64,000 nt of DNA from Ahrensia sp. (GTDB taxonomy: Bacteria > Pseudomonadota > Alphaproteobacteria > Rhizobiales > Rhizobiaceae), in NCBI GenBank assembly GCA_028817895.1, contig JAPPOQ010000030.1, positions 124,001 to 188,000 of the forward strand, written 5' to 3'. Made by a program: the position numbers and the translations under genes. Below, in pieces: positions 45,559-51,358 of the stretch (its first letter is position 1; each line of letters starts with the position of its first letter). A model generated the notes under the pieces. The model saw only the letters and a program-made list of their open reading frames with translations, was not told where the DNA came from and did not search any database.

Positions 45559-46038
45559 ATGAGCCCCGATCCAAAAACCGAAAGCTTTATGGCTTTAGCG
45601 ATCGCGCAAGCAAAGGCGGCGGCTCAGCGTGGCGAAGTTCCGGTGGGCGCCGTTCTCATTCATCAGCGGCGAGTGATCGCCTGTGCCGGCAATCGGACCT
45701 TGGAACTGCATGATCCCACCGCCCATGCCGAAATACTCGTCATCCGAGAAGCCTGCCAACAAGCAAACAGCCAAAGACTGCCTGATTTTGATCTCTACGT
45801 GACCCTGGAACCCTGCACCATGTGCGCTGCCGCGATTTCCTTTGCTCGCATCAGGCGGCTCTACATTGCAGCTGAAGACGCCAAGGCTGGCGCGGTGCTC
45901 AACGGGGCAAGATTTTACGACCAGCCGAATTGCCACCATGCACCCGAAATCTATTCGGGCATCGGGGAGTCGGAGGCCTCACGCCTGCTGAAGAGTTTTT
46001 TCCAGAAGCGACGAAACGTTCCGCCCGATTGTCTATGA
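45559..46038 (+). CDS. tadA: tRNA adenosine(34) deaminase TadA
   Basis: A 159-residue zinc deaminase that converts wobble A34 of tRNA-Arg(ACG) to inosine. The zinc-binding and proton-shuttling residues are H56 and E58 (TAHAE) and C86, C89 (PCTMC). The core AIAQAKAAAQRGEVPVGAVL is typical. It is divergent from the rluB-type gene and its last codons overlap the 3' end of the convergent lipoprotein gene by six bases. An RNA-editing role rests on family assignment; other nucleoside deaminases are closely related. Confidence 0.9.
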   Translation: MSPDPKTESFMALAIAQAKAAAQRGEVPVGAVLIHQRRVIACAGNRTLELHDPTAHAEILVIREACQQANSQRLPDFDLYVTLEPCTMCAAAISFARIRRLYIAAEDAKAGAVLNGARFYDQPNCHHAPEIYSGIGESEASRLLKSFFQKRRNVPPDCL

Positions 46039-46770
46039 AGCCGGCTTCTTTGTCTGCGCCTTCTTCACATTCTCACGCGAACTCCGACCGCTGAAAATGC
46101 TGAAAATCGGCTTCTTGTCGGTTTCGCTATATTCTGTTTCGCCGACCGAACCAATTGCAGCCGTTTGTGCAGGTTGACGGTATTCCTGCGGCGGCTGTGT
46201 CAGATATCGGCGGGGACCAGCACCTAGCGTCGCGCCACCAGACAATTCCTGCATACGACGGCGACGTTCTTCGCTGCCTTGTTGGCTGCGCGCGACAATT
46301 TCCGCAGCGGACGGTTCACGGTCCCCCGTTCCATCGTCAGCACGACCGCGGGTGGTGTCCAGAATCGGTTCGCCGCTCGCCGCCGGAGCATCTGCATCGC
46401 CTGCCAAAGTGTATTCCAAACCACCATCGCGGCGAGTGAACTCACGTGGCTTGTCCGACCCCGCAGCCAGACGGCGCTCTTCAGGGTTCGTCGGGAAATA
46501 GGCAGACTGCGAGGCACCAACCGTTTCGGCAGGGGCTGGAAGCGATGCGGCGGCTGTTGCAGGGGCTCGCACAAGTTTTGGCCGAGACGAATAGTCGATC
46601 GGCTCCTTACGCTCGCTCGTGCCAAGCGGGACGATATTGGCAAGATCGCTCACCAACTGTGCTTCCTGCGACACGCCGGTACCGTATGTGCTGGAGCCGG
46701 TGCAGCCGGACAATGCAGACACTGAGGCAACCAATACGACCCCAACGCAGGATGATTTGACGCGTCTCAT
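46033..46770 (-). CDS. Putative lipoprotein of unknown function
   Basis: About 245 residues. ATG at 46770 starts a lipoprotein signal: MRRVKSSCVGVVLVASVSALSGC, in which LSGC is the lipobox and the Cys follows at about residue 23. The mature part is long, polar and low-complexity (Ala/Pro/Glu/Arg-rich), with no domain I recognise. A C-terminal KPIFSIFSGRSSREN segment precedes a basic tail. The frame opens at 46833, but the lipobox fixes the start. It lies after ileS on the same strand, 194 bases away, and has no functional context. Confidence 0.6.
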   Translation of the reverse strand: MRRVKSSCVGVVLVASVSALSGCTGSSTYGTGVSQEAQLVSDLANIVPLGTSERKEPIDYSSRPKLVRAPATAAASLPAPAETVGASQSAYFPTNPEERRLAAGSDKPREFTRRDGGLEYTLAGDADAPAASGEPILDTTRGRADDGTGDREPSAAEIVARSQQGSEERRRRMQELSGGATLGAGPRRYLTQPPQEYRQPAQTAAIGSVGETEYSETDKKPIFSIFSGRSSRENVKKAQTKKPAS

Positions 46771-46964
46771 TGTGATGATGTTCCCAAACTTCGTGCGAAA
46801 CAGTGTGTCCGCACGCTGCATATCGCAGAACAAAGGACCCTGACCACAGAATTGCGGCCAGATTCCGACTTTTCCCTCTCACAAGATTAGCACAGATCCC
46901 ACCCGGCCGTGTTGCGAAAGTACCACATAATCCACGTTTCCCGAATGCGATGCGCGTTCGTGGT

Positions 46965-49900
46965 TTACGCGGCTTCGATCTCGCGCATCGCAGCCGCATC
47001 CCGCAGAGTGATGTCTGGATAGTCCGGATCTGACCCGACCTCTGGCAACACCTTCCAGGAACGGGCGCATTTCGTGCCCTGTGCCATGGCATTGACAACC
47101 GCGACACCCGCAACCTCTTCAAGCGTGAAAGCAGCGGAGGGCGCGGGCTTATCCGTCACTTCAATCTGACTGGTGATGCAGATTTCCGCCATGTCCAGCC
47201 CCGCAATGGCGGCCATCAACTCCGCATCCATAACATGCACGACCGGCGCGGCCTCCAGCGAAGACCCGATGCGCTTTTCGCGTCGTTCGATTTCCAACGC
47301 CCCGGTCACCACGCGCCGCACCTGGCGAACCTTCCGCCATTTTGCGGCCAGTTCGTCGTCTCGCCACTCGACGGGCAAGTCCGGGAACTGCGCCAGATGC
47401 ACTGAATCGGCATTATGATGGCGTTCGGTCCACGCCTCCTCCATCGTGAAGGAAAGCATCGGGGCCATCCATGTCACCAGACAGTCGAACAGATGGGAGA
47501 CGACCCGCAATGCGGCCTTGCGCCGAACGGAAGACGGTGCATCGCAGTACAGCGCGTCCTTGCGAATGTCGAAATAGAAGGCCGACAGTTCGATATTGGC
47601 GAAATTGTTCAAAGCCGCAAAGATGCGTTTGAAATCGAAATTGTCATAGCCTTCACGAACCGTACCATCGAGTTCGATCAGCCGATGCAGCATGAGCCGT
47701 TCAAGCTCCGGCATGTCGGCAAAGGCGACATCCTCTCTCTGATCATGGGCCAGCGTGCCAAGCATCCAGCGCAGCGTGTTGCGCAGCTTGCGGTAGGAAT
47801 CGACGGCAGTCTTGATGATTTCTGGCCCGATGCGCTGATCTTCGGTATAGTCCACCGAAGACACCCAAAGGCGCAAAATATCGGCGCCATACTGCTTGAT
47901 GACTTCCTGCGGTTCCACCTGATTGTTCAGCGATTTCGACATCTTGCGACCGTCTTCTGCCATGGTGAAACCGTGGGTGAGCACGGTTTCATAAGGCGCG
48001 CGGCCACGGGTCCCGCAGCCTTCCAACAGCGAAGAGTGGAACCAGCCGCGATGCTGATCGGAACCTTCCAGATAGACATCGGCTGGCCATTTCAGATCGG
48101 GGCGCTGTTCCAGACAAAAGGCATGAGTGGAACCGGAATCGAACCAGACATCGAGGATGTCATCGACCTTCTCCCACTTCTCCATGTCTTTGACGAAACC
48201 GTCGAGAAAACGCTCCTTGGCGCCCTCCTCATACCAGCAATCAGCGCCTTCTTCTGCAAAGGCGGTCTTGATGCGGGCCGCGAGCTCGTCCGACTTTCCA
48301 AAATCCGGCCCGGGGATGACCTGTCCGGTCTCGCTGTGGCGGAAGACCGTGATCGGCACACCCCAGGCACGTTGACGTGACAGCACCCAGTCGGGCCGAT
48401 CCGCGATCATGCCATGCAGCCGCGTCTTTCCGCGTTCCGGCACGAAACGCGTTTCTTCGATGGCGGCAAGGGCGCGTTCACGTAAGGTTTTCCCTCTCTC
48501 CCCTTGGGGGAGAGATGTCTGCGCAGCAGACAGAGAGGGGTTCGACGATGTTTGTGGCGCGCCTTGCGTGCTACCCCCCTCTGTCGCCTTCGGCGACATC
48601 TCCCCCTCACGGGGGGAGAAGGAGTCAGTGTCAAAGTCTTTATCCATATGGACGAACCACTGGGGCGTGTTGCGGAAGATGATCGGTTTTTTCGATCGCC
48701 AGGAATGCGGATAATCATGCTTCAACCGCCCGCGCGCGAACAGCATGTCAGCCTCGATCAGCGCGCTGATCACCTTCTGGTTGGCGTCGCCCTTCTTGCC
48801 TTTCTCATTGATGACCTGAGCGCCCTCAAAACCCGGCGCACCGTCTGTGTAACGGCCCTCATCGTCCACGGTGAAGGGGATGGCGGCGGAGATGCCACGC
48901 GCTTCCAGTTCGCGGGCATTCGCCATCCAGATTTCAAAGTCATCGCGACCATGTCCCGGTGCAGTGTGGACAAAACCCGTGCCCGCGTCATCGGTTACGT
49001 GATCGCCTTCGAGGAGGGGGACAGTGAAGTCGTAGCCTTCAGCAAACCCGCGAAGCGGATGATCGAGCCGTATTGACTCGAACTCTTTCGCAGCCACGTC
49101 CCTTATCCGCTCGAAAACAAGCTTTGCTTTCTCAGCACATTCCTTTGCGAGTCGGTCAGCAAAAACGAGCAACTCGCCAGCTTGCGGGCCGAAATCGTTT
49201 TCGGCGTTTGTTATCTTATAGAGGCCGTAGTCAATCCGGTCAGAGTAGCAGACCGCGCGATTGCCTGGGATAGTCCAAGGAGTAGTCGTCCAGATGACGA
49301 TAGAGGCATTCACGAGAGCAATATCGTGATAGTCAGGATTCGTACCAGCTGCGACACTGCCCATCTCCGCATACGCTACCGGAAACTTCACCCAGACCGT
49401 ATCGCTCTCATAGGTCTGATATTCGATCTCCGCTTCCGCCAATGCGGTCTTTTCAACCACGCTCCACATGATCGGCTTGGACCCGCGATAGAGCTGGCCG
49501 CTCTTGGCAAATTTCATCAGTTCGTCAGCGATGATGGCATCCGCCTTGTAGGCCATCGTCAGATACGGGTCCTTAAAATCGCCAACCACACCGAGGCGCT
49601 GGAATTCCTCGCTCTGCACACCCACCCAGTGATCGGCAAAATCGCGGCATTCCCGGCGGAATTCGATGACCGGCACTTCATCCTTGTTTTTGCCCTTGGC
49701 GCGATATTGCTCCTCGATCTTCCATTCGATCGGCAGGCCGTGACAGTCCCACCCCGGCACATAGTTTGAATCATAGCCGCGCATTTGGAACGACTTGGTG
49801 ATGATGTCTTTCAACACCTTGTTGAGCGCGTGGCCGATGTGAAGATTGCCATTGGCATAGGGCGGACCATCGTGAAGTACATATTTGGGCCGCCCGGCAG

Positions 49901-50054
49901 CGTCGTCACGCAGCTTGCGGTACAAGTCCATTTCCTGCCAGCGGGCCAGAATTTCTGGCTCCTTCTTGGGCAGCCCGGCCCGCATGGGAAAGTCGGTTCT
50001 CGGCAAATAGAGCGTGCTTGAATAGTCGCGTTGTTCGGCTGTGTTTTCGGTCAT
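46965..50054 (-). CDS. ileS: Isoleucyl-tRNA synthetase with an in-frame palindromic-repeat insertion
   Basis: A 1029-residue class I synthetase charging tRNA-Ile. The ATP-binding HIGH is at residues 72-75, KMSKS is at about residue 703 ([11 protein letters not shown]), and the CP1 editing domain and C-terminal anticodon domain are complete. Length is larger than the ~960-1000 usual in Rhizobiales because residues ~475-523 are encoded by a GC-rich inverted repeat (48487-48632) inserted after HMDKDFDTD and before [15 protein letters not shown]. The insertion sits in a linker between HMDKD and the [11 protein letters not shown] segment and keeps the frame. Upstream lies a second repeat cassette, then two SDR genes and ribF. 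Confidence 0.95.
48487..48632. repeat. Palindromic repeat element inside ileS
   Basis: An inverted repeat with two arms of roughly 50 bases joined by about 45 bases. The left arm holds hairpins CTCTCCCC-TT-GGGGGAGAG and TGTCTGC-GCA-GCAGACA; the right arm, read inverted, has the same order with TGTCGCC-TTC-GGCGACA and TCTCCCCC-TCAC-GGGGGGAGA. Both arms end with a GAGGGG-type tail. The arms diverge in the hairpin stems while keeping the pairing. Elements of this design are widespread between genes in Rhizobiales; here one is in coding sequence, read without stop codons. Confidence 0.85.
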
Positions 50055-50596
50055 GATTGGCTCTGGTCGTGGTCGCGGAAGGCGGTTCCGCGCGCGCTGT
50101 TCTGAAAGCGAAACCTGTCAGGTCGCAGCGCTGAAAATTGGTTTTTGGGGAATGCGAGATGCAACGCTTGCAGTCAACCGCCGAGCGCGAAGCGTCAGCC
50201 GTTGACCGTGCCGGTAATTCGGTCTGCTATCTTAATGAGAATGATGGAAGCGTTCTGCATAAACGGGCAATAGCAAAGGGTTGCCCGGCAATCCAGTGGG
50301 AAATGCGACAGCCAATGAAGAGTGCCACAACGCCTTCTCCCCTGTGGGGAGAAGGTCCGCGAAGCGGGGATGAGGGGGTGGGCGAGATGGTTGAGTGTCT
50401 CCGCAGCCATTTTCGATCGGTCCCACAAGGGCGCGGGCGACCGGGCTGCGGATTCTTCGAGAGTGCACGGCAAGCCCCCCTCACCCGCCCTTCGGGCACC
50501 CTCTCCCCCGGGGGAGAGGGGGAAGCGGCAACCGCATTGCTTCAAATTCAGAAGACCCGCCCGAGCTTCATAAGTAACCGTTTTACGCAGTTAGAC
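50055..50596. other. ileS upstream region with repeat cassette
   Basis: The 541 bases between ileS and the SDR gene. About 200 of them (50332-50525) are the palindromic repeat listed separately; the rest shows no gene. Short open frames across the repeat on both strands are low-complexity and have no homology I can see. The ileS promoter must lie in the left 270 bases. Confidence 0.5.
50332..50525. repeat. Palindromic repeat cassette upstream of ileS
   Basis: Left arm begins with the hairpin CCTTCTCCCC-TGT-GGGGAGAAGG (about 50333-50355) and continues with CGCGAAGCGGGGATGAGGG; the right arm carries CCCTCACCCGCCCTTCGGGC and ends in the hairpin CCTCTCCCCC-GGGGGAGAGG (ends near 50520). The arms are inverted relative to each other with about 80 bases between them. 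Same architecture as the element inside ileS, with different stem sequences, so probably a related family. Confidence 0.75.
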
Positions 50597-51358
50597 TCAC
50601 CAAACCGGCCCGTCCAACTTGTCGAAAATGGCCTTGCGCATCGCGCGAGTGGCCGCATTGGGGGCGAGGTTGCCGAACAGCTTTGCCATTGCCGCCCCCA
50701 TACCGGGGTAAAGCTCGCGTTTGCGCCTCCGCACGGCCTTCAGGATCAAACCAGCGAGTTTGTCGGGCGCCATGCGGCGGTTTGCTTTGGCACCCGGCGG
50801 CGCGTGGCGTTCGGCATGGTCTGTGCGAATGGGGCCGGGAAACACGGTCAAGACTCGCACACCCCGCTTCGCGAAAGGGCGCCGCACACCCTTGGCATAA
50901 AGCGCAAGCCCGGATTTCGTCGCGGCATAAACAGCCGCTCCCGGATAGCCAACGGCATGAGACAGCGAGGAGACGAAAACGATGGTGCTGCGCGCCGCCA
51001 TCGCATTTTGCCCCACCAGTTGAGAGGCAAGCGTGATTGGTGCGGTGAGATTGACGGCAATCAGCCGCTCATAGGCGCTTTGGGGAATGTCTTCGAACCG
51101 ACCCGTGGCGCTGATCCCGGCATTCAAAATCACAAGATCGAAGGTCTGGTCCGTCAGCACATCAAGCAGGCGCTGTACGGAGCTTTCACTGGCAAGGTCA
51201 GCGAGCCTCGCCTTGCAGGCACCACGGCTTTCGGCAATCAGGGCGTCAAGCGGCGCGGTGTCAATATCGACTGCGACCACCTCATGTCCGTCATCAAGCA
51301 GGGATTGCGTGAGCGCGCGACCAAGCCCATGCGATGCGCCTGTAACGAGGGCTCTCAC
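50597..51358 (-). CDS. SDR family oxidoreductase (downstream of a paralogue)
   Basis: A 253-residue classical short-chain dehydrogenase. The cofactor site is TGASHGLGRALTQSLL, NAGIS follows near residue 80, and the catalytic residues are in VSSLSHAVGYPGAAVYAATKSG (Ser, Tyr-x3-Lys). The C-terminus is long and basic (AVRRRKRELYPGMGAAMAKLFG), like SDRs acting on lipids or at membranes. Its ATG overlaps the stop of the second SDR gene. The pair interrupts the usual ribF-ileS order; they could form a heterodimer. Confidence 0.85.
   Translation of the reverse strand: MRALVTGASHGLGRALTQSLLDDGHEVVAVDIDTAPLDALIAESRGACKARLADLASESSVQRLLDVLTDQTFDLVILNAGISATGRFEDIPQSAYERLIAVNLTAPITLASQLVGQNAMAARSTIVFVSSLSHAVGYPGAAVYAATKSGLALYAKGVRRPFAKRGVRVLTVFPGPIRTDHAERHAPPGAKANRRMAPDKLAGLILKAVRRRKRELYPGMGAAMAKLFGNLAPNAATRAMRKAIFDKLDGPVW

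Follow-up and report, generated by a model that had tools for sequence, protein, structure and literature searches.

A palindromic repeat in frame within ileS of a Rhizobiaceae genome, and palindromes of several families in the same linkers of IleS and GlyS

Results

An in-frame insert in ileS

The window, the whole stretch of 64,000 nt that was analysed, contains ileS as a single open frame without a stop codon (Table 1). Matches of the encoded protein to its relatives are interrupted, ending at about residue 474 and resuming at about residue 521. From the same genus, 14 IleS sequences were fetched; one (G007) is a fragment in which the region is missing, and the 13 that cover it all lack the insert and have a short linker after WFxxMDK. 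A reading of the sequence alone had proposed that a palindromic repeat is inserted in frame in ileS and should be absent from close relatives, and both points were borne out, with about 47 extra residues in an uninterrupted frame of 1029.

The insert consists of a two-armed palindrome, designated F1, in which two inverted arms of 46 nt enclose a spacer of 33 nt. Each arm is composed of two hairpins and a G-rich tail. Both arms derive from a single unit, in inverted orientation, and have diverged in sequence, each keeping its own hairpins, in agreement with the earlier description of arms that pair while differing in sequence. As RNA (48480-48640, minus strand), the insert is predicted to fold at -81.3 kcal/mol compared with -55.4 +/- 4.2 kcal/mol for dinucleotide shuffles (z -6.1), and none of 200 shuffles was equally good. 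An Rfam search of window positions 46000-51000 yielded nothing at E 0.1 or below, and a repeat search of the insert region reported none, a type of search that diverged arms can escape.

Table 1. Position of ileS, its insert and nearby repeat features in the window
Feature	Position	Strand	Evidence
ileS, isoleucine--tRNA ligase, 1029 aa	46965-50054	minus	ORF list; NCBIfam TIGR00392, 789.5 bits (cut-off 621.4)
Insert in ileS, about 47 residues (475-521), missing from congeners	about 48492-48632	minus	Alignment to relatives
F1 arm 1	48495-48540	+	R1 model, 71.5 bits; identical to arm of copy at C32:286534
Arm 1, hairpin	48495-48515	+	
Arm 1, hairpin	48516-48532	+	
Arm 1, G-rich tail	48533-48540	+	
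Spacer between F1 arms, 33 nt	48541-48573		
F1 arm 2 (5' arm in ileS reading)	48574-48619	minus	R1 model, 69.4 bits; phase
Second palindromic element, other family, between ileS and neighbouring short-chain dehydrogenase gene	50334-50519		

The genome to which the window belongs comprises 3.54 Mb in 46 contigs, is 99.85% complete and has its relatives in the Rhizobiaceae. Among the IleS-like matches listed for it, the only other one is the genome's ValS (28% identity), so ileS appears to be present in a single copy. Copies related to the second palindromic element of Table 1 were noted at C19:35523, C31:43163, C29:20761, and C46:14259.

An AlphaFold2 model of IleS based on 29 sequences reached a mean pLDDT of 81, and its best fold matches in the PDB are IleRS. 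Residues 478-519 remained below 50; they are preceded by a strand (459-468) and followed by a helix (524-534). The insert is modelled as a loop of low confidence; a surface loop had been presumed from the sequence. The solved IleRS of Priestia (8c9e) has no counterpart of it, query residues 475 and 522 corresponding to chain residues 419 and 416, respectively.

F1 copies in the window genome

A degenerate DNA pattern applied across the window genome was too strict and gave no F1 match; a covariance model of the F1 arm built from 14 arms, R1, was used instead. It revealed eight full two-arm copies of 122-143 bp. Three of these lie within conserved genes (ileS, uvrB, and glyS) and keep the frame. 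The insertion in ileS is thus no isolated case: F1 is also found in uvrB and glyS, and the same loops are filled in other lineages (see below). The copy in uvrB directly precedes the stretch to which the UvrB profile matches; the one in glyS beta is situated ahead of NDDLL. The uvrB linker holding F1 is also present in G011 and G004, where the F1 motif is lacking; a 21-residue piece of the G011 linker folds at z -3.9. The remaining five copies are apparently intergenic, and for the three ORFs of at least 200 residues that span one of them no Pfam match was obtained.

The 14 aligned arms have neither GTAG nor CGTC at their ends, yet GTAG adjoins one arm in four of the eight copies, as noted for the spacers of ileS, glyS, L071, and L074. 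This GTAG often leads into a small third hairpin resembling TAGCGCGCAAAGCGCGCC.

Distribution of F1 and search for a mover

Searches with R1 detected F1 in 42 of 81 Rhizobiaceae genomes, each representing a different genus, and in none of 59 genomes from other families of the same order, at E 1e-8 and with strict filters by which weak copies are missed. The maximum number of matches per genome is at least 76. On named plasmids, F1 was found in 41 records, the hosts being Rhizobium, Shinella, Neorhizobium, Sinorhizobium, Martelella, Nitratireductor, Phyllobacterium and, outside the family, Pannonibacter. The plasmids NZ_CP032313.1 and NZ_CP013069.1 of Pannonibacter phragmitetus carry F1-like repeats at 12 and 10 places, respectively. 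Strict confinement to the Rhizobiaceae was dropped on account of these two plasmids, as Pannonibacter belongs to the Stappiaceae; plasmid-borne transfer may explain their repeats. F1 is found mainly in the Rhizobiaceae.

A Y1 transposase of the RAYT type, as known for REP/REPIN, was considered as a mover and rejected, because Y1_Tnp is not associated with F1, being present in 6 of 42 genomes with and 6 of 39 genomes without the repeat. The sole Y1 transposase-like match of the window genome (G000:C30:10960-11310) contains an internal TGA. A target-site duplication, such as would be expected of a MITE, was not recognised when the flanks of F1 copies were inspected by eye.

Reading frame of genic copies

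In inserts of IleS, UvrB, and GlyS, the F1 5' arms are read in one phase in 12 of 12 cases, giving SPLxGEM...TEGG (the GEM frame). Two further families behave in the same manner: arms of F2 (SPLxGGR) are in one phase in 7/7 cases, and so are the 5' arms (GHLLPxGEK, 8/8) and 3' arms (GEGG, 7/7) of F3. These counts omit motif hits that fall in conserved stretches or lie close to the 5' end of a stop-to-stop ORF. Among the latter are three F2-motif copies in other phases (GlyS ORFs L235, L270, and L282), which are located upstream of the likely start as judged by position.

A sample independent of these genes was assembled from 88 F1 loci, 28 of the 29 search loci outside the window genome (L294 was left out) and 60 picked from the list; the 29 are biased to the best hit of each genome. 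The repeat was inside a coding ORF at 17 loci, 16 of them with a family match, and the other 71 were not scored as genic. Matches were obtained to GbcB, CobN (2), IleS, Lhr-like helicase (2), a type ISP enzyme, FtsY (3), UvrB, XdhC, biotin carboxylase, GlyS (2), and UvrD/PcrA. For FtsY and UvrB, the match is limited to the side downstream of the repeat; in the FtsY ORFs, a start reading GFIKKxFxFGK precedes it. One helicase ORF (L298) was retained on its family match though its codon bias was not flagged. Repeats in the same gene were seen across genomes for CobN (L321/L313), FtsY (L324/L367/L314), and Lhr-like helicase (L298/L376).

The GEM frame is used by the 5' arm in 15 of the 16 genic copies with a family match. 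CobN of G016 (L313) is the only counted genic copy in another frame and reads LPPCGGDARQGRGG. Combined with the inserts described above, 26 of 27 genic 5' arms are in the GEM frame, one GlyS common to both sets (L312 and L284) being counted once. Not included are L309, L337, and L377, where the repeat is upstream of the likely start (L337 in another frame), L302 at 1790 (GEM frame), L374 (GEM frame, no family match), and solitary 3'-type arms in FtsY. Frame scoring in the survey took 98 of 172 arms, the count of frame openness 170 of 172.

Avoidance of stop codons would account for part of this bias. Where loci were not scored as genic, full elements gave 81 readings, and the whole element was open 57, 39, and 28 times in the three frames; stop-avoidance alone predicts about 46% of open readings in the GEM frame. 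The excess is significant at p 2.6e-8 if copies are assumed to be independent, and at p 1.6e-4 if gene sites are counted (14/15, CobN entering for both frames). Among the F1 copies of the window genome, the second frame is mostly open and the third often contains a stop; reading in these two frames runs into stops or yields an Arg/Cys-rich peptide. Unlike the 5' arms, 3' arms use all three frames. From the frame bias we infer selection against the peptides of the alternative frames, which also argues that the genic copies are translated.

Different palindromes in the same linkers

For IleS, 117 loci were handled, yielding 113 ORFs of which 110 are distinct, the window included. The linker that holds F1 in the window (site B) comprises at least 30 residues in 14 of these 110. 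Compared with mononucleotide shuffles, nine of the 14 long stretches fold at z -4 or below; inspection by eye identified a palindromic repeat, or a single arm of it, in 11 of the 110 proteins. The eleven are from the window, G016, G034, Tianweitania populi, Rhizobiaceae ECS31B3, an unclassified alphaproteobacterial MAG (L117), Mesorhizobium alhagi, two Devosia, a Boseaceae, and a Hyphomicrobium. Of the other long stretches, L132 and L162 show no palindrome, and L153 has a strong fold yet is outside the eleven. In G034, site B comprises 111 residues and is mixed. A second position, site A, follows HPL in the editing region; it is long in four of the 110 proteins, three of which fold at z -4 or below, and in G066 (L299) it contains an F1 copy. 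The window's own segment was not encountered in IleS of many unrelated Rhizobiales, and further copies exist in its genome, as the sequence-only reading had it; yet this site of IleS is taken up by other palindromes in other lineages.

In GlyS, palindromes of several families were detected in 10 of 50 proteins, in the linker that holds the F1 copy of the window genome. GlyS of G070 has three inserts in one protein. The same genome has a palindrome in IleS (L109) in addition to the three in GlyS (L283). In G011 and G013, the GlyS insertion looks inherited and kept open, because the spacer is shared as well as the repeat. In the paralogue ValS, which served as control, a palindromic insert was found in none of 50 proteins, and high inverted-repeat scores fall in conserved sequence.

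Genic copies were called, and inserts listed, by visual inspection, and the GlyS and ValS sets each consist of the 30 best matches and 20 hand-picked sequences, many chosen for length. In these non-random sets, 10/50 against 0/50 corresponds to p 0.0012 (Fisher). For the 30 best matches the contrast is 5/30 against 0/30 (p 0.052), one of the five being the window genome. IleS differs from ValS at p 0.018 if inserts are called by eye (11/110) and at p 0.058 if called by fold (9/110). The repeated filling of the same loops was seen directly; a preference for these genes rests on a small control.

In UvrB, the C-terminal linker was also seen to carry F1 arms in four genera (L251, L254, L256, and L260), possibly as one old insertion.

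Discussion

The insert in ileS is probably a selfish or neutral palindromic repeat, translated as the frame bias suggests, tolerated in a linker and filtered according to its peptide. An F1 copy, spread by some route, would have entered an ileS linker that is not conserved and would be translated as a flexible hydrophilic loop tolerated by the enzyme. Genic copies would persist only where the linker takes extra residues and the 5' arm reads SPLxGEM...TEGG, and those in the other two frames, with stops or an Arg/Cys-rich peptide, would be purged by selection. Mobility of F1 is likewise inferred. A purely neutral model does not readily account for the recurrence of palindromes in a small number of genes. 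This recurrence may arise from tolerance of the linkers, from replacement of one palindrome by another or from a benefit, and the data fit all three.

An artefact, either misassembly or a pseudogene, could be suspected in a genome of 46 contigs. The open frame of 1029 residues, the lack of a second IleS among the matches listed, the 99.85% completeness, the presence of F1 in two more genes of this genome and palindromes of other families in IleS of named isolates make it extremely improbable. A role of the palindrome at the RNA level, in pausing, stability or regulation of the ileS mRNA with an incidental peptide, would be in line with the very stable predicted fold (z -6.1), the preservation of both hairpins in each arm and the 71 of 88 surveyed loci not scored as genic. 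The frame bias, however, acts at the peptide level, and genic copies are found at differing places in unrelated proteins and have no common regulatory position, so that such a role is considered unlikely.

We also give little credence to co-option, in which the added flexible segment would serve docking or spacing in IleS, GlyS, FtsY, UvrB, and CobN and insertions would be favoured. It would account for different palindromes filling the same loops in separate lineages (IleS 11/110, GlyS 10/50, ValS 0/50), for F1 in FtsY of three survey genomes, CobN of two and the Lhr-like helicase of two, and for the GlyS inserts of G011 and G013, which share the spacer and look inherited and kept. But the families have no peptide in common, most of the relatives examined have empty sites, linker tolerance accounts for the recurrence equally well, and the contrast of GlyS to ValS on the 30 best matches is just 5/30 against 0/30 (p 0.052). 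Less remote, though still rather doubtful, is the idea of a landing pad: a filled linker would later be converted by other palindromes through recombination, and seemingly independent hits would partly be replacements. Different families at one IleS site, the mixed site B of G034 IleS and the three inserts in G070 GlyS would suit this idea; no intermediate or hybrid junction was demonstrated, however, and the IleS linker is plain and short in congeners of the window genome.

A broader proposal is made tentatively and with slightly more doubt than conviction. The Rhizobiaceae and their relatives would harbor several protein-compatible palindrome families, each read in essentially one harmless frame, which repeatedly enter or replace each other in a small, recurring set of loops in essential or conserved enzymes, namely IleS, GlyS, FtsY, CobN, UvrB, and Lhr-like helicase. 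If true, this would constitute a second, independent arena of coding selfish DNA, wider than that of Rickettsia and in culturable bacteria. Different repeats in the same loops and in one frame are natural replicates, which make it possible to examine if coding repeats ride along neutrally or supply raw material for new protein segments. The organisms can be grown and modified, and they offer a natural map of those loops in essential enzymes that tolerate insertions.

Relation to known repeats

The classic coding palindromes are RPE of Rickettsia and WPE of Wolbachia. According to the literature (Ogata et al. 2000/2002, as described in PMC2229807, PMC3767692, and PMC10969869), RPE are multi-copy elements of about 100-150 bp that encode a conserved peptide and are inserted in frame into conserved genes, the sites being reported as solvent-exposed. 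Several of these features recur in F1, which is a multi-copy palindrome about 100-150 bp long and keeps the frame of the conserved genes that carry it; orthologues have an empty site, and one encoded peptide is conserved (5' arm frame 26/27). As judged from the descriptions, F1 differs from RPE in being G+C-rich, in having two arms with two hairpins each and in occurring mainly in Rhizobiaceae rather than Rickettsiales. By analogy, F1 would work like a Rickettsia palindromic element, and intragenic REPs outside Rickettsia have already been published. The parallel to Rickettsia in a rhizobial-type genome drawn by the sequence-only reading holds as to the organism, whose relatives are Rhizobiaceae; as a case outside Rickettsia it was preceded in 2013, when in-frame palindromes including those in tRNA synthetase genes were reported (PMC3733652).

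There, Di Nocera et al. describe in-frame GTAG/CGTC REPs in several bacteria, among others in tRNA synthetases and uvrA/uvrB, the inserts being mostly of 20-30 residues and clusters of 43-82. F1 resembles them as an in-frame palindrome in conserved genes, tRNA synthetase and uvr genes included; what appears to set it apart from the REPs portrayed there is arm ends devoid of GTAG/CGTC, the adjoining GTAG mentioned above notwithstanding. Among the openly licensed papers listed by literature searches, none describing coding palindromes from the Rhizobiales, or from IleS or GlyS, was found. That RPE-like coding insertions have a part in shaping the proteins of other prokaryotes is considered conceivable in a 2024 review (PMC10969869).

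Among the palindromic repeats of rhizobia are RIME, Sm, and the A, B, and C repeats (Osteras et al. 1995, cited in PMC2573895), which are described as intergenic, as are Br-REP1/2 of Bradyrhizobium (PMC5082802). Going by description, F1 shares with RIME, Sm, and the A, B, and C repeats the palindromic nature and the rhizobial hosts, and it may belong to them.
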